A DNA stretch of 18,998 nt from Thermoplasmatota archaeon (lineage in GTDB: Archaea > Thermoplasmatota > Thermoplasmata > RBG-16-68-12 > JAGMCJ01): assembly GCA_022848825.1 (NCBI GenBank), contig JAJISH010000397.1, positions 1-18,998 on the forward strand. Direction: 5' to 3'. The notes below the pieces were generated by a model. The model was not told where the DNA came from, made no database searches, and was given only the letters and a program-made list of their open reading frames with translations. The position numbers and the translations under genes are program-made. Below are positions 3,058-13,023 of the stretch, piece by piece (position 1 is the stretch's first letter; each line of letters opens with the position of its first letter).

Positions 3058-3549
3058 ATGACGAGATGTCCCGTGTGCGACTTTGACTTGGAGGACGCAT
3101 CGGTCTGTCCGCGTTGCGGGACGGCCGTCGCCGGACTTCTCGATCCCACCCCAGCACTTTCTGTGGAAGGCGTTGAGGGGCCGCTCGTCGACCTGCGATG
3201 CGAACGTTGCGGCGAGGGCGACCTGATGCTAGTCACAGACGAGACGGACATACCGAGATACAGATGCCCGAAGTGCGAGTCATACAGGGGAGAGTTCCTA
3301 CATACGGGGAGGGAGACCTACTACTCCACGACGGAGCTGCGGGTAGGTCAATTCATCGACACGCGACTCAAGATGACCGGTGACCTCCTCCTCCCCATAG
3401 AGGATCACATGGCGTATCTCTCCCGAAAGATATCTGAGGCCACGAACATCGACCCAGAGCAGGTCGAGAAGGCGGTCGAGTACCTCAAGGAGCGGGAGAT
3501 CATCATGATAATGCACAAGGGAGACCACTTCGAGGTTGAGTTCAGATGA
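3058..3549 (+). CDS. Zinc-ribbon protein with possible C-terminal winged helix
   Basis: A 163-residue soluble protein. Four C-x-x-C pairs (4/7, 17/20, 48/51, 70/73) would form two zinc ribbons: a rubredoxin-like N-terminal one (CPVCDFDL...CPRCG) and a second resembling TFIIS/TFIIB-type ribbons (CERCG...YRCPKC). The C-terminal third, with ISEATNIDPEQVEKAVEYL followed by a beta-hairpin-like tail, could be a winged helix. Together these suggest nucleic-acid binding. ATG 3058 is preferred because the box A ahead of it predicts a leaderless mRNA. The gene is 22 bases upstream of nop5 in the same orientation with no promoter between, so a role in RNA or RNP biology is a reasonable but untested guess. 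I do not recognise a named family. Confidence 0.8.
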   Translation: MTRCPVCDFDLEDASVCPRCGTAVAGLLDPTPALSVEGVEGPLVDLRCERCGEGDLMLVTDETDIPRYRCPKCESYRGEFLHTGRETYYSTTELRVGQFIDTRLKMTGDLLLPIEDHMAYLSRKISEATNIDPEQVEKAVEYLKEREIIMIMHKGDHFEVEFR

Positions 3550-3571
3550 GGTCCTTTTCGGCGGTGGTAAG

Positions 3572-4621
3572 ATGATCCTTGTCACGACCTGGTTCGGATC
3601 CTTCCTGCTTGACGGAGACCGGGTCTCGGAGTACAAACTGTTCCCGAAGAACGCCCGGGACATCGCAGCGAGGATGCGAAGGGCGAACGATTCCAGGATC
3701 ATTGGAGAGGAAAGGGAGCTTGTCAAGGACCTTGACGAGTTCTTCGTCGTGGAGAAGAGGCTGGAGAAGATTGGAGGGACCAACATTAGCGTTGAACCTC
3801 CTTTCATACGCCCCGAGGACTACGACTTCGGCCGTGACCTGCTCCATGATGCCATGATTCTCGTGGCGAAGGAGAGCATGACCCGGGCCGTGGGCAGGGA
3901 CGATCATGTCTCGCAGGCCGTGAACGCGCTGGACGACATGGAGAAGACCGCCAACATCCTGTACGGCAGACTGAAGGAGTGGTACGGCCTCCATTTCCCT
4001 GAGCTGGAGAAACTCGTCGACGGAGACAGCTATGTGCGCCTGATATCCGAGTTCGGGAGCAAGGACAAGATGGCAGATATGAAGGATGTGGAGTCCATTG
4101 GGTTCGAACTCACGCCAGAAGATGAGCAGACGATCATGGAACTCGCAAGCATGATAGAGGAAGCGATATCGAGGAAGGCAACGCTCCAAGCGTACATCGA
4201 GAGCGGCATGAGGTCGTTCGCTCCCAATGTGAGCGAAATCGCGGGGCCGATCATCGGTGCAAGGCTCATAGATCTGGCGGGCGGTCTCGATCGGCTCGCG
4301 AGATTGCCCAGTGGCACGGTCCAACTCCTTGGCGCGGAAAGGGCGCTATTCAGACACCTGAAGAGCAAGAGCAAGACCAAACCCCCGAAGCATGGCGTGC
4401 TGTTCCAGCACCCCGATGTGCACAGATCCCCGTACTGGCAGAGAGGGGCGATTGCCAGGGCTTATGCGGGGAAGATATGTATCGCGGCCAGAGCCGATCA
4501 CTACTCCAAGCGGTTCATAGCGGGGGAGCTGAGGAAGGACCTAGAGGAAACGCTGAGGAGGATCAAAGAGACCCGCAAGGAAGCCCCTGTGCCAAGGAAA
4601 CGTCGCGGCAAGAGGAGGTAG
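3572..4621 (+). CDS. nop5: Nop5/Nop56-58 family box C/D RNP core protein
   Basis: The scaffold of archaeal box C/D RNPs, bridging L7Ae-bound guide RNA and fibrillarin so that rRNA (and tRNA) receives 2'-O-methyl groups. The start ILVTTWFGSFLL is typical of the N-terminal fibrillarin-binding domain, so ATG 3572 is used rather than GTG 3536, which would run into the upstream gene. A coiled-coil middle region (about 100-200, with GLHFPEL at 139-145) precedes the Nop domain: AGPIIGARLI, GAERALF (254-260), KHGVLFQHPDV (273-283) and RGAIARAYAGKICIAARAD. The tail is Lys/Arg-rich (RKRRGKRR), as is common in this family. At 349 residues it is of usual length. The fibrillarin gene flpA, often adjacent in archaea, is not next to it; the next gene encodes a solute-binding protein. 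Confidence 0.95.
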   Translation: MILVTTWFGSFLLDGDRVSEYKLFPKNARDIAARMRRANDSRIIGEERELVKDLDEFFVVEKRLEKIGGTNISVEPPFIRPEDYDFGRDLLHDAMILVAKESMTRAVGRDDHVSQAVNALDDMEKTANILYGRLKEWYGLHFPELEKLVDGDSYVRLISEFGSKDKMADMKDVESIGFELTPEDEQTIMELASMIEEAISRKATLQAYIESGMRSFAPNVSEIAGPIIGARLIDLAGGLDRLARLPSGTVQLLGAERALFRHLKSKSKTKPPKHGVLFQHPDVHRSPYWQRGAIARAYAGKICIAARADHYSKRFIAGELRKDLEETLRRIKETRKEAPVPRKRRGKRR

Positions 4622-4770
4622 CTCTTCCGCTCATGCGCCCCGAACACAACGAATACTGACTCGGAAACAGGGCATCGACATTGCGCGGAGAGTCGCATAT
4701 CGCGATCTGTCTGGCTGAGGCCCATCCAGTACAGCATTGCAGACTTCAGCACGCTATTACAAAAGAATAT

Positions 4771-4788
4771 ACCAAATACATTATAAAC
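4771..4788 (+). promoter_or_regulatory. Predicted BRE/TATA promoter of the solute-binding protein gene
   Basis: The 187 bases between nop5 and the next start hold this AT-rich element. TTATAAA at 4781-4787 with an A-rich BRE-like stretch just upstream lies about 25 bases before ATG 4809, predicting a leaderless mRNA. It is among the best TATA matches in the window. I see nothing else in this gap. Confidence 0.65.
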
Positions 4789-4808
4789 CCCATAGGACTT
4801 TAGAATGC

Positions 4809-7688
4809 ATGGGGAGACCCATGACTGGTGTAGAGAAAGGATCTGATACGAGAAGAAGCGCGATTGCCCTTGCGATTCTGATGGCCTTTATGTTCTTGGC
4901 TTTTTTCGGGGCCGTGGCTCAAGTAGCTCTGGCAGGAGAGACAAGGCAAGACCTCATTCTGAGAATCGGTGCTCAGGACGAGTTGAAGTCGAGGAACATC
5001 CTCGCCATCGGTGATGTCTGGAGCACGAACGTGCTGGGCCCGATCTATGAGAGTGTTGGCCAGGTGGACCCGACAACGGAGAACCCGGTTCCCTATAATC
5101 TCTTGGGGATCGATGCGAACGAGGATGGCGTGTTCGAGGAGAGCGAGTATGGAGTGTACACAAAGCTGACGAACCAGTCCGAGGTCACTGCCTTCTACGA
5201 CCTGAATGGTGTCCACTTCCATGATGGCGTGCAGGCAACGATGCATGACGTTCTCTTCGCATATCATCTGAACGCTCTGGATCCAATTACGACATCCCTT
5301 GATGTGCTGAAGGACAAGAACAACCTGCCGGGCACCAACTACTCGACGAGCAGGTGGCTGCATGTCTGGCCTGTTGAGGCAGAATGGGTCGACGCTATAC
5401 CAAAGGGTGCGAATGAATCGCTGAGGTTCGCACTTCACTTTAAACAGCAAGCCACGTATGCCAGATTCACGGACTGGACCCTGAACGGGGGCAGCATCCT
5501 CCCGCGCCACATATGGGAGGGTACGGGAAGACTGTGTCTTGACGCGACTGATGGCGTGTGCAGCAACTGGAGGGAGAACATACACCTGGACTTCAAGCGC
5601 GCCTATGATGATTCAACGCACAACGGCGTACCCGCAACGGAGACTTTCGCTTTCAAGTTCAGCGACGCCGAATCCTGGCTTATGGAGGACAACGAGGTCA
5701 TTGGAACGGGACCGTTCTCGTTCGGAATATGGACCCCCGGTGTCACGGTGAAGATAGACAAGAACTGGGACTACAAAGCGGACGTTGTCGCTTGCGAGAA
5801 GGTGGGAACTCCACCCGTTTGTACGGGGAACTTCTACTCGTACATGCACCAGCCGTACATCGACGGGATGCTGTTCAAGATATACAAGACCGCGCAGGCA
5901 GCCGTGTTCGCGCTCCAGGCGGGAGAGATAGACGTCGTGTCATGGTCCGTTCCTCCTGAGTTCGTGGGCGAACTCATCCGGGACCCGAATGTGGAGATAA
6001 CGGCAACGGCTGAGAAGGGATTCTTTTATCTCAGCTACAATATGCGGATATCTCCGTTCGGCTATCCCGACAACGATCCGACCCAGGGCGATGTTGGGCT
6101 TTGGCTCAGGAAGGCCATCGCTCATGTCATTGACAAGAAGAGAATCGTGACGACGTTGCTACAGAACTTCGGTGTTCGCGGAGATCAGCCCGTGAGCCCT
6201 GGCTTCACGAAATGGTACAACGCGTCCGTTACCAAATACGATTACGATCTGGAAACGGCGAAGGAGATACTGGACGACCACTACACAGAATCGTTCCAGG
6301 GAGGAGACGGCCTCGGCTGGGCAGGTGGATGGAGGATTCTTCCGACGATAGGGAACCAGGAGATCGAGCTACTGTGTCCCCAGGCGGACTACGATCCGAT
6401 CCGTGCCCAGGCCTGCAACATGATAGCGGGCGACATGCGGAAGATAGGGTTGAACGCAGACGCGAAGCTGGTGGCATTCGGGGAAATCGTGGAGAGGCTG
6501 AACAACCGTGACATGCAGATGTGGGTCCTCGGATGGAGGATAGGTTCCGATCCACCCGACTACTACTACGCCTTCTTCTACTCAGGAAACGCCAGAGCTG
6601 GACAGAACTATCCCGGGTTCCAGAACGAGACATTCGACAGCTTGATCACGGCGGCTCGTGCGGAGCTCGACCTGGAGAAGCAGACGAAGATCATCAAGCA
6701 ATGCAGCGGGCTGCTGACGGATGCGCTGCCCTACGACGTGCTCTACTTCAGAACCAACATCGAACCGTACAGGGCGGACAGATTCGTCAACTGGACTGTT
6801 GGACCAGCCGGATCGATATTCGGTGGTTCCCCGCAGTCCTGGATCGGGATTCATCCGCCTGTGAAGAAGACGATGAAGGTACTGCTAGAGCTCAGATCGT
6901 CCATGAAGGCTAGCGGTATCAACGAGACAAGTACACAGGCCGTCACGGTCAGGGTCAGAAACATAGCGGACAACACGCCGAAACAGGGCGCCAATGTCAC
7001 GATAAGCCTCGCCGTCCCGATAGGCCAACTCGCCTACGGAACCCAGCAGGGCGGATCGGTGTCTGGCTTGTCAGACGTGAATGGCAACTTCATCGCGACC
7101 TACGTGGCACCTGTCTGGAATGAGACGGTAAACGACACTGAACGACTGACAATCACGGCAAGTGCGGAGTTCGAGGGCGAAGAGACCGGACAGGTCCTAG
7201 CTGACGTCCTCATCTATCCTCGAGGCCGCCCCTTCCTTGCAGTCCTCACGAAGTGGACGGTTTCAGATATCGTCCTCACGAAGGACTCCGTCCCGCTCGA
7301 AGTAGAGGTGACGGATCAGGATGGCATCACGGTTAACGGCGCTGAGGTCACGGTCACACCCGAAGTTGGAGGGCCGACCGTGTCTCCTGAGATTGGGGTG
7401 ACTTCAGGCGGCAAGGCTGACTTCATCATCACGGCCCCGAAAAAGGTCTCGGACACCGCGAACGCCGAAGTGGACTTCCTATTCAGGGTCCAGGCTACGG
7501 CCGCGGGACTCGCCTCCGAACCGTACCAGATTCTGCTTACGGTCAAGGAGAAGGGCGGCGACGACGGCGGCTTTGATATGACCATCCCGGCAATCGGGGC
7601 TGCAGTCGCCATTGTGGCCGTCGTGGTAATTGCCTCCTTCCTTGCGGTCAAGAAGAAACCGAAGAGACGCCGAAAGAGGAACAAGTGA
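4809..7688 (+). CDS. Membrane-anchored family 5 (peptide/nickel-type) solute-binding protein with Ig-like region
   Basis: A 959-residue cell-surface receptor. A hydrophobic segment after R15-R16 (about 17-40, ending ALAGE) is a signal peptide or N-terminal anchor. Residues about 45-680 form a family 5 extracellular solute-binding domain: IGTGPFSFGIW, LQAGEIDVV, the LRKAIAHVIDKKRIV helix, MQMWVLGWRIGSDPPDYYYAFF and the terminal ALPYDVLYFRTNIEPYR. Residues about 690-915 contain Ig-like beta repeats (VTVRVRN...NVTISLAV; VPLEVEVTDQDG...VEVTVTP-type strands). A second membrane helix (about 923-945) and a Lys/Arg tail follow. Many N-x-S/T sequons fit an exported archaeal glycoprotein. ATG 4809 fits the promoter distance; ATG 4821 is the alternative. 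No permease or ATPase for peptide import is adjacent. Substrate unknown; peptide or oligosaccharide are both known for the family. Confidence 0.88.
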   Translation: MGRPMTGVEKGSDTRRSAIALAILMAFMFLAFFGAVAQVALAGETRQDLILRIGAQDELKSRNILAIGDVWSTNVLGPIYESVGQVDPTTENPVPYNLLGIDANEDGVFEESEYGVYTKLTNQSEVTAFYDLNGVHFHDGVQATMHDVLFAYHLNALDPITTSLDVLKDKNNLPGTNYSTSRWLHVWPVEAEWVDAIPKGANESLRFALHFKQQATYARFTDWTLNGGSILPRHIWEGTGRLCLDATDGVCSNWRENIHLDFKRAYDDSTHNGVPATETFAFKFSDAESWLMEDNEVIGTGPFSFGIWTPGVTVKIDKNWDYKADVVACEKVGTPPVCTGNFYSYMHQPYIDGMLFKIYKTAQAAVFALQAGEIDVVSWSVPPEFVGELIRDPNVEITATAEKGFFYLSYNMRISPFGYPDNDPTQGDVGLWLRKAIAHVIDKKRIVTTLLQNFGVRGDQPVSPGFTKWYNASVTKYDYDLETAKEILDDHYTESFQGGDGLGWAGGWRILPTIGNQEIELLCPQADYDPIRAQACNMIAGDMRKIGLNADAKLVAFGEIVERLNNRDMQMWVLGWRIGSDPPDYYYAFFYSGNARAGQNYPGFQNETFDSLITAARAELDLEKQTKIIKQCSGLLTDALPYDVLYFRTNIEPYRADRFVNWTVGPAGSIFGGSPQSWIGIHPPVKKTMKVLLELRSSMKASGINETSTQAVTVRVRNIADNTPKQGANVTISLAVPIGQLAYGTQQGGSVSGLSDVNGNFIATYVAPVWNETVNDTERLTITASAEFEGEETGQVLADVLIYPRGRPFLAVLTKWTVSDIVLTKDSVPLEVEVTDQDGITVNGAEVTVTPEVGGPTVSPEIGVTSGGKADFIITAPKKVSDTANAEVDFLFRVQATAAGLASEPYQILLTVKEKGGDDGGFDMTIPAIGAAVAIVAVVVIASFLAVKKKPKRRRKRNK

Positions 7689-7769: not shown

Positions 7770-8156
7770 ATGTCATGGAATCAGGCTGAAATGAGGTCTC
7801 TCAAACCGAACAGATACGTCCTCATAGACGAGGAACCCTGCAAGATTCTCAGCGTCAACATCTCGAAGCCAGGGAAGCACGGAGAAGCGAAAGCCAGGGT
7901 AGAGGCCGTGGGGATCTTCGACAAACAGAAGAGGAGCATCGTGCACCCTGTCACGCACAAGGTCAAGGTTCCGATTGTCGACAAGAGGAGGGCTCAGATT
8001 CTCACGGTTATGGGTTCTGAGGTTCAGCTCATGGACCTTGAGACGTACGAGACGTTCAACGTCGCGATATCGGCAGAACTGGGCGGTAAGCTCAGCCCAG
8101 GCGGCGAGATCCAGTATCTCGTGGCAATGGGGAGGAAGAAGATAACCAGGACGTGA
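7770..8156 (+). CDS. eif5A: Translation factor aIF5A (hypusine-containing)
   Basis: Archaeal homologue of eIF5A/EF-P, which binds the ribosomal E site and relieves stalling. The modification loop S-K-P-G-K-H-G-E-A-K is intact, with Lys36 the residue expected to become (deoxy)hypusine through deoxyhypusine synthase. Residues about 1-68 form the SH3-like domain and about 70-128 the OB-fold domain, matching the usual archaeal length. ATG 7770 has GAGG upstream. Its TGA overlaps the GTG start of the agmatinase gene by four bases, so the two are probably translationally coupled, which fits a shared place in polyamine/hypusine metabolism. Confidence 0.96.
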   Translation: MSWNQAEMRSLKPNRYVLIDEEPCKILSVNISKPGKHGEAKARVEAVGIFDKQKRSIVHPVTHKVKVPIVDKRRAQILTVMGSEVQLMDLETYETFNVAISAELGGKLSPGGEIQYLVAMGRKKITRT

Positions 8157-9028
8157 TCCCTCCGATGAGGCCCGCTCCCCTCGCCTTTGCGGACGCGCGC
8201 GCGGACCTGCAGGGGGCGGAGTTCGTGATATTCGGCGTCCCCTTCGATGGGACGTCCACGTTCAGGAAGGGGTCCAGTCTCGCGCCTGAGAAGATAAGGG
8301 AGGCCTCCTACAACTTCGAGACCTACATCTTTGAGCAGGACATCGATCTTGATGACGTTCCAGTCCACGACGCGGGAGATGTCGAGTGCTCTGGCGGTGT
8401 GAAGGAGGTCCTTGGTCGCGTGCGGGACTTCTCGAGCGAAGTGGCGGACTCCGGCAAGATCCCCGTAGCGATCGGCGGTGACCATTCCTTTACCCCCGCG
8501 GTTGTCGAGAGCTTTGATGACATCGGTGTCGTGATCCTGGACGCTCACCTCGATTTCAGGGACTCGTACGAGGGCGAGGGACTCGGCCATGCGTGCACGA
8601 CCAGGCGCGTGTCAGAGGTGGTCGGAATCGACCATGTCATCCCGGTCGGTGTTCGGTCCTTTTCGAGGGAGGAATCGACGGATGCGAAGGATCTTGGACT
8701 GTCCTACATACCTGCCAGTGAGATCTTCGAGAAGAAGCTCATGGCGAGCACCGCGAGAAAGGCTCTGAGCTTCGTAGAGAGAAGCGACATCTACCTGTCG
8801 ATCGATATGGATGTGGTTGACCCAGCGTATGCTCCGGGCGTGGGAAACCCGGAACCGTTCGGATTGACCGCTGACCAGGTGAGGGAGCTCATCGACCTGC
8901 TCGGGAGCAGACTCGTGGGTGTGGATTTCGTCGAGGTCTCTCCTCCCCATGATTGTGGCACAACGGCATTGCTCACTGCGCGCCTCATAAGGGAGGCGAT
9001 CGCCGTGATGAAAAAGGCTCACAGATAA
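8153..9028 (+). CDS. speB: Agmatinase/ureohydrolase family enzyme
   Basis: A Mn-dependent ureohydrolase of the arginase/agmatinase family; agmatinase makes putrescine and urea from agmatine. All metal ligands are visible: His111 (GGDHSFT), Asp130, His132 and Asp134 (DAHLDFRD), Asp218 and Asp220 (SIDMDVVDPAYAPG). Glu261 sits in the conserved VDFVEVSPPHD. At 291 residues it is full length. GTG 8153 overlaps the aIF5A stop; ATG 8165, four codons later, is also possible. Coupling to aIF5A supports agmatinase over arginase or formiminoglutamase, and in Haloferax volcanii an agmatinase-like enzyme has been linked to the hypusine pathway, so action on an agmatine-modified aIF5A is conceivable. The 3' end overlaps the convergent gene by ten bases. 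Confidence 0.9.
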   Translation: MIPPMRPAPLAFADARADLQGAEFVIFGVPFDGTSTFRKGSSLAPEKIREASYNFETYIFEQDIDLDDVPVHDAGDVECSGGVKEVLGRVRDFSSEVADSGKIPVAIGGDHSFTPAVVESFDDIGVVILDAHLDFRDSYEGEGLGHACTTRRVSEVVGIDHVIPVGVRSFSREESTDAKDLGLSYIPASEIFEKKLMASTARKALSFVERSDIYLSIDMDVVDPAYAPGVGNPEPFGLTADQVRELIDLLGSRLVGVDFVEVSPPHDCGTTALLTARLIREAIAVMKKAHR

Positions 9029-9624
9029 CCGGGGATGTCCGCTGTCCTGTGAGAGATCTTCTCGAGGTCCACCCTCCTCAGCTCATCGTCAAACTTCTTG
9101 TCGACGGAACCCTTCCTCTCCTTGAGGTCGATGACCTTCGTGGTGTCCTCCCCGGCGTCCTTTCTGAGCGTCTCGATCTCCTTGACAAGGGCGATGTCTA
9201 TCTTGACGCCGTTCATTCCGAGTATCCAAAGGGTGTTCCTCATGATGTCGAGCTCGAGCACCATCCTCTCCCTGGTTCCGATCCTATTCAGTTTCCGACT
9301 CATCTTCACCAGGAAGTCCCGATGACTCTTCAGGGCGTTGAGGATGTTGTCTATCCTCTCGCTCGTCCTCAGAAGGTACTCCTCGAGCCTCATGACAGCA
9401 CCGTTGAGGTCCCCCATGAGCCCGCCCTCGCCCTTCTTCGTCCTGGTCGTGATCCTGAGGGCGTCCATCATGATCCCTTCGCGCTTGATTCGGGTCTCCA
9501 GCTTCCTCTCCAGGGCTCTCGTCTTCTTCTTCTCTTCCGCCAGTTGCTTCTGAATGGATTTCAGACGCCGCTCTACCTTGTCAAGACGCCCCTGGAGTTT
9601 GCTGGCATCCCCTGGCCCCGTCAT
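9019..9624 (-). CDS. Coiled-coil protein of unknown function
   Basis: A 201-residue soluble, strongly charged protein. A long coiled coil runs through about residues 8-50 (LQGRLDKVERRLKSIQKQL, then Lys/Glu-rich), a middle segment (LNGAVMRLEEYLLRTSERID, about 70-95) is helical, and the C-terminal third is also mainly helix. No membrane segment, Cys cluster or catalytic motif is seen, and I do not recognise the family. The frame is open upstream to a GTG at 9738 and contains another ATG at 9714, but that stretch has atypical, AT-richer codons and lies in the divergent promoter region, so ATG at 9624 is preferred. It converges on and overlaps the agmatinase gene by ten bases and diverges from the ABC operon. 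Confidence 0.72.
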   Translation of the reverse strand: MTGPGDASKLQGRLDKVERRLKSIQKQLAEEKKKTRALERKLETRIKREGIMMDALRITTRTKKGEGGLMGDLNGAVMRLEEYLLRTSERIDNILNALKSHRDFLVKMSRKLNRIGTRERMVLELDIMRNTLWILGMNGVKIDIALVKEIETLRKDAGEDTTKVIDLKERKGSVDKKFDDELRRVDLEKISHRTADIPGYL

Positions 9625-9642
9625 CTGCCTTATGATTGCCCG

Positions 9643-9655
9643 AGTAGAATAAGAA
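9643..9655 (-). promoter_or_regulatory. Possible weak box A for the coiled-coil gene
   Basis: On the minus strand CTTATTCT (9645-9652) lies about 25 bases before ATG 9624. It is a poor match to the consensus but is at the correct distance for a leaderless transcript. The intergenic region 9625-9779 (155 bases) contains this and the divergent ABC promoter, and I see nothing else in it. Confidence 0.3.
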
Positions 9656-9752
9656 GTTTGTGATATCGTTCTCGACCGGCGGATTCTATGCTTGGCTGGG
9701 GTTGGATTGCTCATGTCTGGTCTCAAGTCATCCGTCACTTGTGGTCAGATTC

Positions 9753-9779: not shown

Positions 9780-10817
9780 ATGACTATGAGCGAACCTATC
9801 ATTGCGATAGAGAACATCTCGAAGACCTTCACTTCCAAGGAGCGAGGAAAAGGACGGAAGCGGAAGAAGAAGGTCGAGGCGCTCAAGGATGTGAGCCTTG
9901 AGATCTTCGACGGAGAGGTATTCGGCTTGCTGGGGCCCAACGGTGCTGGGAAGACCACCCTGATCAAGTGTCTCACGACACTGCTGCTCCCGACATCAGG
10001 AACCGCCTGGATAAATGGTTTCAACCTTCAGAAGGAGGAGAACAAGGTGCGAGCTTCCATCGGTTGCATGCTGATGGGCGAGCGGGGACTCTATTGGAAG
10101 CTTACGGGCAGGGAGAACCTGGACTACTTCGGAGCGCTCTACTATATCCCCAAGAACGTCAGAAGGGAGAGGATCGACTACCTTGTCGATCTTCTGGAGC
10201 TCTCGGACTTCGTGGACAGGACGGTGGAGACGTATTCGAGCGGGCAAAAGATGATCCTGGCATTTGCCAAGTCTCTGATCAACGATGCTCCCATCCTCTT
10301 CCTTGACGAGCCCACTGTGACGATGGACGTTCACGCGGCACGCAACCTGAGGAGCATAGTCAGGAGTCTGAACAAGGAGGGCCACACGATAATCTACACC
10401 ACACACTTGATGGCGGAGGCCGACGAGCTCTGTGACCGGGTGGCCATCATAGACCGAGGTGAGATCATCGCCCTCGGTCCTCCCAGCGAGCTCAAGTCCT
10501 CGATCCCGCAGGAGAGCGTCGTCGACGTGGAAGGTGTGATACCTGAGTCCGCCCGGAACAGGATAGTCGAGATACCGGGGATAAGGACGGCAGTGGTCAA
10601 GGATGAGACGAACGGGAAGACAATGCTGGGGATAATTTGCGACAACAGCCGAAGGGTGCTCCCGAAGATAATCGACGTGCTCGTGGAGGAGGACGCGATC
10701 ATTGAGTACATAAGCCCGCAGGAAGTGACGCTCGAGGACGTTTTCATTGCCAAGACCGGGAGGTCTCTGAGCATAGACACGAGGGAGATTGTGACGCCCA
10801 AGGATGCGGGGAAGTGA
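9780..10817 (+). CDS. ABC-2 exporter ATP-binding protein
   Basis: Cytoplasmic ATPase of an ABC-2 (DrrA/NatA-like) exporter, working with the two downstream permeases. Walker A is GPNGAGKTT (52-60), the signature SSGQK (153-157) and Walker B ILFLDEP (172-178), with the switch His209 in TTHLM. After the nucleotide-binding domain (about 7-240) is a C-terminal domain of roughly 100 residues typical of ABC-2 ATPases. Oddities: a Lys/Arg insertion (GKGRKRKKK) between the first two strands; the usual Q-loop glutamine replaced within LMGERGLYWKLTG; and the D-loop GLD replaced by TMDV. ATG 9780 fits the TATA element, with ATG 9786 as alternative. The stop overlaps the next gene's GTG. Confidence 0.93.
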   Translation: MTMSEPIIAIENISKTFTSKERGKGRKRKKKVEALKDVSLEIFDGEVFGLLGPNGAGKTTLIKCLTTLLLPTSGTAWINGFNLQKEENKVRASIGCMLMGERGLYWKLTGRENLDYFGALYYIPKNVRRERIDYLVDLLELSDFVDRTVETYSSGQKMILAFAKSLINDAPILFLDEPTVTMDVHAARNLRSIVRSLNKEGHTIIYTTHLMAEADELCDRVAIIDRGEIIALGPPSELKSSIPQESVVDVEGVIPESARNRIVEIPGIRTAVVKDETNGKTMLGIICDNSRRVLPKIIDVLVEEDAIIEYISPQEVTLEDVFIAKTGRSLSIDTREIVTPKDAGK

Positions 10818-11689
10818 CGGCAAAGACTGTGCACAAGAACCTGGGCCTCTCGGAGATCTCATGGAGGTCCTCACTCGGTGTCACGAAGACCGTTCTGATC
10901 GCGCGGTTCAAGATCGTCCTTCGATACAAGGGCGCCATTGTGTTCGACATGATACTCCCGGTAATCCTGGCGGCCCTTCCCATCCTCCTCGGTGTGGCGA
11001 TTGCGGGACAGGCCGCAGCTCAGAATTTCGAGGACGCCACGGGGACGGAGAACTACAAGCTCTACATGCTCATCGGCGCGAGCACGTTCATCGTCGTCAC
11101 GCTCATGCTTTGGCTCGTTGGCTACTGGATAAGGAGAGAGATGGAGACAGGGACGCTCGAGTCCGTCTATGCTTCCCCTGCCAAGAGGGTCGAGGTCCTG
11201 TCGGGAGTCACGTTGTACGCGCTCATCAGATCGCTCATGGCATTCGCGTTCGCCATGGTAGTGGGCTCTTTCATCTTCCAGGTCGATCTCTTCCAGGGCG
11301 AGATGGCATTGGCATTGGCCTTTGTCGTCATCGGCATAATCCCGTTGTGGGGCATCAGCTTCGCGTTTGGAGCCCTGATCCTCAAGGTGAAAGAGGCCGA
11401 TTCTCTGATCCAGGTCATGCAGTGGGTCGTGGCGTTCTTCATGGGGATATTCTTCCCGATCACGGTGTTCCCGCCCTTCCTCAGGTACGTGGCGTTGAGC
11501 TTCCCGCCAACCTGGATGACGAACGGGGTCAGGGCCTCGTTGCTGGACGTCGCCTACTTCTTCGGGACGTGGTACCTCGATCTGGCGGTCCTCTTGGCCT
11601 TCGCAGCGGTCCTCCCGCTCGTAGGGTACACAGTCTTCTTGAGGACTGAGCGCAGGATTAAGAAGAACGAGGGGGTTGGACAATTCTGA
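10814..11689 (+). CDS. ABC-2 type permease, paralogue 1
   Basis: An integral membrane subunit of 291 residues with about six hydrophobic segments (for example GAIVFDMILPVILAALPILL, FIVVTLMLWLVGYW and the C-terminal LAVLLAFAAVLPLVGYTVFL). GTLESVYASPAKR and the FFMGIFFPITVFPP-like loop are typical of ABC-2/DrrB-type permeases. It starts at GTG 10814, overlapping the ATPase stop by four bases, with GGGG just ahead. It is paralogous to the next gene (GTLES-x-Y-x-SPA, K-x-KE and FFP segments shared) and the two probably form a heterodimeric channel. The loop between helices 1 and 2 is short (AAAQNFEDATGTENY), unlike its partner. Substrate unknown; lipids, drugs or polysaccharides are known for this class. 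Confidence 0.9.
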   Translation: MTAKTVHKNLGLSEISWRSSLGVTKTVLIARFKIVLRYKGAIVFDMILPVILAALPILLGVAIAGQAAAQNFEDATGTENYKLYMLIGASTFIVVTLMLWLVGYWIRREMETGTLESVYASPAKRVEVLSGVTLYALIRSLMAFAFAMVVGSFIFQVDLFQGEMALALAFVVIGIIPLWGISFAFGALILKVKEADSLIQVMQWVVAFFMGIFFPITVFPPFLRYVALSFPPTWMTNGVRASLLDVAYFFGTWYLDLAVLLAFAAVLPLVGYTVFLRTERRIKKNEGVGQF

Positions 11690-13023
11690 AGGGAAAAACC
11701 GTCAGCAGGGGATTCGGCCTTTCGGATTTCTCCTTCAAGCAGAGCATTGCGACGTTCATTTCCATGTCGAAGAAGACCATCGTGGAGTTCTCCAGGTACC
11801 CCTTGTCCTTCGGTGCGATCTTCCTTCAGATATTCCTCATGGTGCTCATGTTCATGTTCGCGGTCTTTGCCTTTTCGTCTCCGACGCAGGCGCTTGACTC
11901 CTTCGAGGACGCGTCCCTGTCGGGCTGGGCAGAGGACCCGCTCTCCCACGTCGGCGAAGGGGAGTTCTATCGAGTACTGACGGGCCCGTACGGGGATGAG
12001 CCGTCGATGGTCACATTCCTGAACCTTACGGACCCAGCTCATTCATACGGTGTGGAGAAGAACCCGGAGGGCGTGTCCGATTGGTCGGCCTTCAAGCAGA
12101 TACAGATAGGGCTATATTCGTCCAGTGGAACGACCGCGGACGTCTCGATCCAGCTGAAAGGGGATTCTGGCGAGAACGGGACATGGTGGGAGTCCGACAT
12201 CGTGGGCTTTGGCGGAGGCCAGGACACCCTCGTCTTCAACATCACTGACTTCGGCGGGGAGAACTCGACACTGGAAAGTGTGGATTCGCTCAGCATAAGG
12301 TTTCAGAACGCCGATAACGGAACGATCGTGTACGTAACCCAAATAGACATGGTCCTGACGCCCCAAGGAGCGAGACTGGCTGGCGTCATGATGTACGGGT
12401 TCGTCATCTTCATCTTCCTCAGTTTCATACTCTGGGAGGTGGGCTTCTCCATCAGGGAGGAACAGTTCCGCGGGACGTTGGAGTCTCTCTATCTGTCACC
12501 GGCGAACAAGTTCAGCAACCTCATATCCAGGGTCTTCGCGATCTTCATGTGGATCACCGTGATCGCCTCGATAGCCCTCGTTGTCGTTTCCAACATCGCA
12601 GGCGGTCTTCCGTTGAACAACGTCGCTCTCGCCTTCCTGATCCTCTTCCTCACCGTCTCGGGGATACTCGGGATGGCGTTCTTCGTCGCTGGTCTCACGA
12701 TAAGGATCAAGGAGAGCGCCGCTCTTCTCGTGAACTTCCTTCAGTTCTTCTTCATGATATTCTGCGCCGCGTTCTTCCCCTTCCGTGCGCTGCCATCCGT
12801 CGTCGTCGACTACGTGAGCAGGTGGATACCGGTGAGCTACGGCGTGGATGCGTTCAGATCGGTGCTCATAGGGTTGCCAGAGGGGTACCCTGAACTGCTC
12901 CCCTTCGAGGCCGAGATGGTGGTGGTCGTGCTCTTCGGCATCCTCTCGCCCCTTCTCGGATATCTCTACTACAGGCATTCGGAGAAGAAAGCAAGAATCC
13001 AGGGGACCCTCGGCGAGTACTAG
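11686..13023 (+). CDS. ABC-2 type permease, paralogue 2, with large extracytoplasmic beta-sandwich insert; probable CTG start
   Basis: A 445-residue partner of the preceding permease. From a CTG at 11686 the N-terminus aligns without gaps to paralogue 1 from its first codon: K4-T5-V6, G11-L12-S13, S16, S20 and R37-Y38 are identical. The CTG overlaps the upstream TGA exactly as the GTG of paralogue 1 overlaps the ATPase stop, and GAGGGGG lies ahead at 11669-11675. No ATG, GTG or TTG occurs in frame from 11662 until ATG 11764, the conventional start, which would lose 26 residues. Between helix 1 (about 43-64) and helix 2 (about 232-252) is an extracytoplasmic domain of about 160 residues resembling a galactose-binding/CBM jelly roll ([12 protein letters not shown], then beta strands), with five N-x-S/T sequons. 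Helices 2 onward match ABC-2 permeases ([14 protein letters not shown]). The insert could bind glycans or substrate at the cell surface. Confidence 0.87.

Follow-up and report, generated by a model that had tools for sequence, protein, structure and literature searches.

The window analysed here is an 18,998-nucleotide stretch of contig JAJISH010000397.1 from a Thermoplasmatota archaeon (genome 1.96 Mb, in 453 contigs). It carries a three-gene ABC (ATP-binding cassette)-2 exporter, made up of an ATPase and two permeases, and in one of these, permease 2, a sequon-rich insert of 156 residues, free of stops in translation, separates transmembrane helices 1 and 2 (TM1, TM2; Table 1).

A modified loop in one exporter subunit

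Permease 2 scores above the curated cut-offs of both ABC-2 families tested, PF01061 and PF12698, its ABC2_membrane_3 match covering only profile positions 139-322 of 347, past the insert; its score for DrrB/Mtu_efflux is far below the cut-off (TIGR00025; 24.8 bits vs 146.9). The ATPase resembles DrrA while staying under the drrA cut-off, matches DrrA1-3_C weakly at its C-terminus (26.7 vs 27.4 bits), and shows no carbohydrate-binding module (CBM) among its Pfam matches. All ten loci fetched by name have the three genes in this order: ATPase, permease 1, permease 2.

Table 1. Features of the exporter and of the permease 2 insert, in window coordinates.
Feature	Coordinates	Strand	Basis
ATPase, DrrA-like	9786..10817	+	ABC_tran 99.2 bits; drrA TIGR01188 271 bits vs cut-off 312.45
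Permease 1, ABC-2, partner subunit	10814..11689	+	Pfam ABC-2 family over cut-off; short loop
Permease 2, ABC-2, 445 aa	11686..13023	+	ABC2_membrane_3 47.3 bits (cut-off 31.6); ABC2_membrane 41.1 (26.9)
TM1 core, residues 45-63	11818..11874	+	hydropathy
Inserted domain, putatively CBM11/CIA30-like jelly roll, residues 71-226	11896..12363	+	translation, strand prediction, fold matches; not in short-loop orthologues
Sequon N113-L-T	12022..12030	+	
Sequon N164-G-T (N-E-T in G001)	12175..12183	+	
Sequon N185-I-T	12238..12246	+	
Sequon N193-S-T (N-R-T in other three genomes)	12262..12270	+	
Sequon N211-G-T	12316..12324	+	
TM2 core, residues 231-249	12376..12432	+	hydropathy

By hydropathy the TM1-TM2 loop is 167 residues long and acidic (6 K+R, 25 D+E), and the 44 residues preceding TM1 hold 7 K+R and 2 D+E; from this charge pattern permease 2 would have its N-terminus inside and the loop outside. 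An initial annotation of this DNA had proposed an extracytoplasmic domain of about 160 residues between helices 1 and 2, five N-x-S/T sequons, and only a short loop in the paralogous permease. This anatomy stands: all five sequons are present, each of them N-x-T, and about 20 residues separate the hydrophobic cores in permease 1. The sequons take up five of the seven asparagines of the insert, while the flanks have none in six; 20,000 shuffles of the insert gave a mean of 1.28 and P(>=5)=0.002. All five are kept in 4/4 genomes that carry the insert, despite a change of middle residue at two of them, and genome G001 has a sixth. Two STT3 matches that exceed the cut-off in the same genome make N-glycosylation of the insert plausible.

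The earlier numbering, in which the domain spanned residues 66-226, needs correction, for it implies a start at 11701, a GTC and not a start codon. The likely start is the CTG at 11686, because conservation of the N-terminus extends beyond the first ATG (11764) on its upstream side and because a CTG or TTG overlaps the upstream TGA in relatives. Here the CTG overlaps the permease 1 stop (CTGA); CTG stands at this spot in all four genomes of the genus, in locus L040, in genomes G025 and G032 and in four genomes of a family termed f9, and TTG stands there in another seven relatives (L034-L039, L041). It would be out of the ordinary for a CTG start to be conserved.

Distribution and origin of the insert

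A permease profile search (E<=1e-30) of 400 genomes of the class returned orthologues in 24 genomes: four, all of the window genus, carry the domain, four of family f9 carry an unrelated sequon-rich insert, and sixteen have a short loop. Loop length between fixed anchors is 171 in 4/4 genus genomes, 122-126 in 4/4 f9 genomes and 13-16 in the other 15 measurable; the remaining genome, G006, was classed as short-loop because only 9 bases part its matches to query 1-65 and 224-321. In alignments with eight short-loop orthologues (48-62% identity), both sides of permease 2 align and the insert stands in place of the short loop. The same in-frame insert is found in three of the other four genus genomes, at 84, 95 and 99% identity; with four genomes of the genus carrying it, an assembly artefact is ruled out. 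The fourth of these others, G002 (76% complete), gave no permease match at E<=1e-10. Permease 1 is free of any insert in 19 of the 20 loci checked (one-piece alignment, <=13 gaps), L022 being cut by the contig end. The search for the same architecture advocated in the initial annotation thus finds it in 4 of 24 orthologue genomes, far from common to all, and the accompanying statement that canonical permeases have no such domain holds for most of the orthologues, with the qualification that four of the 20 genomes lacking this domain have a different insert.

In a permease tree with loops removed (22 rows, omitting L024 from G006, broken by N, and L025 from G096, at a contig end), the groups with an insert fall apart from each other (100/99 and 100/100), and two changes are required by the starred branches. 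We read these as gains by parsimony, the root being only a midpoint; with the same reservation, an ancestral domain lost elsewhere is disfavoured, two changes being enough on the tree.

The f9 insert (L021:1180-1575, L020, L022, L023) occupies the same permease loop, with 122-126 residues and 5-9 sequons. It has no Pfam or PDB match, and its profile finds only f9, in 4/250 genomes. A common origin of the two inserts, unless a very remote one, is improbable, as a comparison of their profiles shows no similarity (hhalign probability 0.2%). That unrelated segments have entered the same point of one subunit twice means, at the least, that this loop is permissive, and it may face a useful place. 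In f9 genome G039 the exporter is immediately preceded by genes for an immunoglobulin (Ig)-repeat protein (Big_13 and Glucodextran_B matches) and an M50/PDZ protease (L097:97-2529 and 3160-4755).

The insert is under purifying selection, yet is freer than the membrane part: comparison of the window genome with G001 gives 31 synonymous and 30 non-synonymous differences in the insert (dS 0.358, dN 0.089, omega 0.25), against omega values of 0.02 and 0.11 in the N- and C-terminal flanks. Over 6/6 pairs insert omega is 0.18-0.33, well under 1.

A profile of the domain matched in 14 of the 400 genomes. The matches outside the permease of this genus, among those listed, each lie in a different open frame, of 307-3143 residues. 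Large proteins from the same order and class, surface-anchored by their looks (L049, L050, L064-L071; frames of 477-3143 residues, some truncated at contig ends), carry towards their N-terminus a module homologous to the insert, with 30-31% identity in the nearest and 16-24% in the others; unlike permease 2, these proteins are not transporters. Nine such frames, read by eye, have a hydrophobic N-terminus and the module in their N-terminal portion. Six of them (the second frame of L065, L066-L069 and L071) share a C-terminal motif, DEDILAGMLTA or near, which comes after a hydrophobic stretch where that part was printed; the first frame of L065 ends without it, and L064 and L070 stop short of their ends. 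The same plan is followed by L049 and L050, L049:835-6063 (-) having Ig and cadherin-like repeats; the large protein of G004 has no Pfam match. These proteins, with their CBM11-like module and, in the six frames named, a shared C-terminal domain, are perhaps membrane-anchored sensors.

At phylum level the domain search found 4/389 genomes at E<=1e-6, namely three of the genus and G005, and G004 and G001 showed an additional non-permease copy. A module tree, with long branches and midpoint rooting, clusters the permease inserts with the modules of G005/G016 and G060 (96/96), apart from that of the G004 large protein (L068). The large proteins are the likely source of the domain, and in the anatomy and origin of the insert we have high confidence. 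A link by gene neighbourhood between large proteins and ABC exporters was sought and rejected, tblastn finding ABC ATPases in only one of eleven loci of 4-12 kb (L049), at 28% identity to the window ATPase.

Fold and proposed role of the domain

Structure prediction for the domain gave mostly strands, at low confidence; a full-length model did not reach the quality that a fold search needs. In the PDB the domain finds its best fold matches in CBM11 (CtCBM11, 1v0a/6r31; 15% identity over 119-121 residues) and other CBMs, and 7zkq chain A, presumably CIA30/NDUFAF1 and to our knowledge not a lectin, scores as high as CBM11. A profile of 14 domain homologues matches an agarase (E=7.8e-5); the window domain itself lies below the cut-off of Pfam CBM_11 (PF03425; 16.6 bits vs 27). 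Matches to CD69 (E 0.016-0.056, against 0.13-0.16 for CBM11 in the same search) cover the domain only in part, around its W-rich stretch, and we judged them to be chance. The beta-sandwich reading of the initial annotation has gained support through a predicted sandwich, the CBM matches that head the fold search it called for, and the agarase match, and a CBM11/CIA30-like beta-sandwich is supported but, with a low-confidence prediction, not settled. Recognition of a glycan and holding of a polymer are conjectural, because CBM_11 is below cut-off and a CIA30/NDUFAF1-type chain scores equally.

In a single Thermoplasmata genus, then, the 156-residue domain takes the place of the short external loop that joins TM1 and TM2 in permease 2. 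We propose that it is N-glycosylated and stands on the outer face beside the export path as an accessory ectodomain. There it would dock to or bind a glycan or glycoprotein of the cell surface and so position or regulate the exporter without itself transporting. Since short-loop orthologues are the rule, the core pump would be independent of the domain. As a whole this is the best explanation we have, and we put its chances at about even; the docking role taken by itself is more tentative, and falls somewhat short of that. We prefer docking or binding, with modest confidence, to the three alternatives that follow.

The first, an idea of the initial annotation in its polymer-holding form, has the jelly roll binding the exported glycolipid or polymer at the channel exit, much as the Wzt CBM might if it stood outside. 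The CBM-like fold suits this idea, as do a position in the outside loop of a membrane subunit, hence presumably near the exit, and the precedent of Wzt, albeit on the ATPase (PMC9445017); but no glycan-synthesis gene appears among the flank open reading frames scanned, and sister families have short-loop orthologues, so that we think such holding unlikely. Slightly less likely again is that any soluble sequon-rich domain would serve in a permissive loop, with N-glycans that shield the exporter, or keep it spaced, beneath a surface layer. The unrelated f9 insert in the same loop, with its own sequons, and the retention of the five sequons through middle-residue changes fit such a role, though glycosylation is only predicted and the absence of sequons from 15 short loops merely reflects their small size. 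That the domain was shuffled in by chance and is merely tolerated would agree with an insert omega above that of the flanks and with its restriction to one genus, but is improbable given omega well under 1 in all pairs, conserved sequons and a frame intact between domains 84% identical.

Beyond the accessory-ectodomain proposal lies a bolder and rather doubtful one: that permease 2, but not permease 1, offers in its TM1-TM2 loop an evolutionary socket, filled in separate lineages of archaea by different N-glycosylated ectodomains, so that a widely kept exporter would come to sense, or be gated by, surface glycans from outside.

The surroundings of the exporter gave no clear substrate clue, the conserved neighbours being uninformative in this respect. 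Nine of the ten loci fetched by name adjoin relatives of the window genes at 7770 and 8153, which we take to be eIF5A and agmatinase. Eight of the ten also keep, in the gap that separates the 8153 gene from the exporter, a protein without Pfam match, coiled-coil by eye (9019-9738, minus strand, in the window). Further away, 4737-7688 encodes a 983-residue protein with an SBP_bac_5 match (158-619), a long C-terminal part and a hydrophobic basic tail; by eye, no permease-like gene was recognised adjoining it.

Comparison with known exporters

Among the titles and abstract openings of the open-access literature searched we found none describing such a permease, which does not prove that there is none. 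Related exporters, some having the domain and others lacking it, together with a visible likely source family, provide a natural before-and-after experiment. The presence of two unrelated inserts in the same loop of just one of the two permeases suggests that the outer face of this subunit meets something extracellular, and the asymmetric roles of two-permease ABC-2 exporters thereby become testable in archaea.

The Wzm-Wzt O-antigen exporter shares with the present one a carbohydrate-binding-type domain on an ABC exporter (PMC9445017); its module is on Wzt, the ATPase subunit, whereas here the domain is outside, on one permease, and the ATPase has no CBM match. The type V/VI hybrid exporters YhaQP, LnrLMN and NatAB also join a rather large extracellular domain to a type V-like membrane domain, but theirs is a five-stranded sheet flanked by helices, unlike the present insert (PMC11466899). 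LptF and LptG, of type VI, have beta jelly-roll domains (PMC11466899) and so resemble it in bringing a jelly-roll-type domain to an exporter; the LptF_LptG family is absent from the Pfam matches listed here (E up to 10, most above 0.1 filtered out). For ABC exporters at large, then, the claim that permeases lack such domains has to be narrowed, since permease ectodomains of other kinds exist. Wzt, the V/VI hybrids and LptFG show the principle of extra exporter domains, and differ from the insert of permease 2 in place, subunit or fold.
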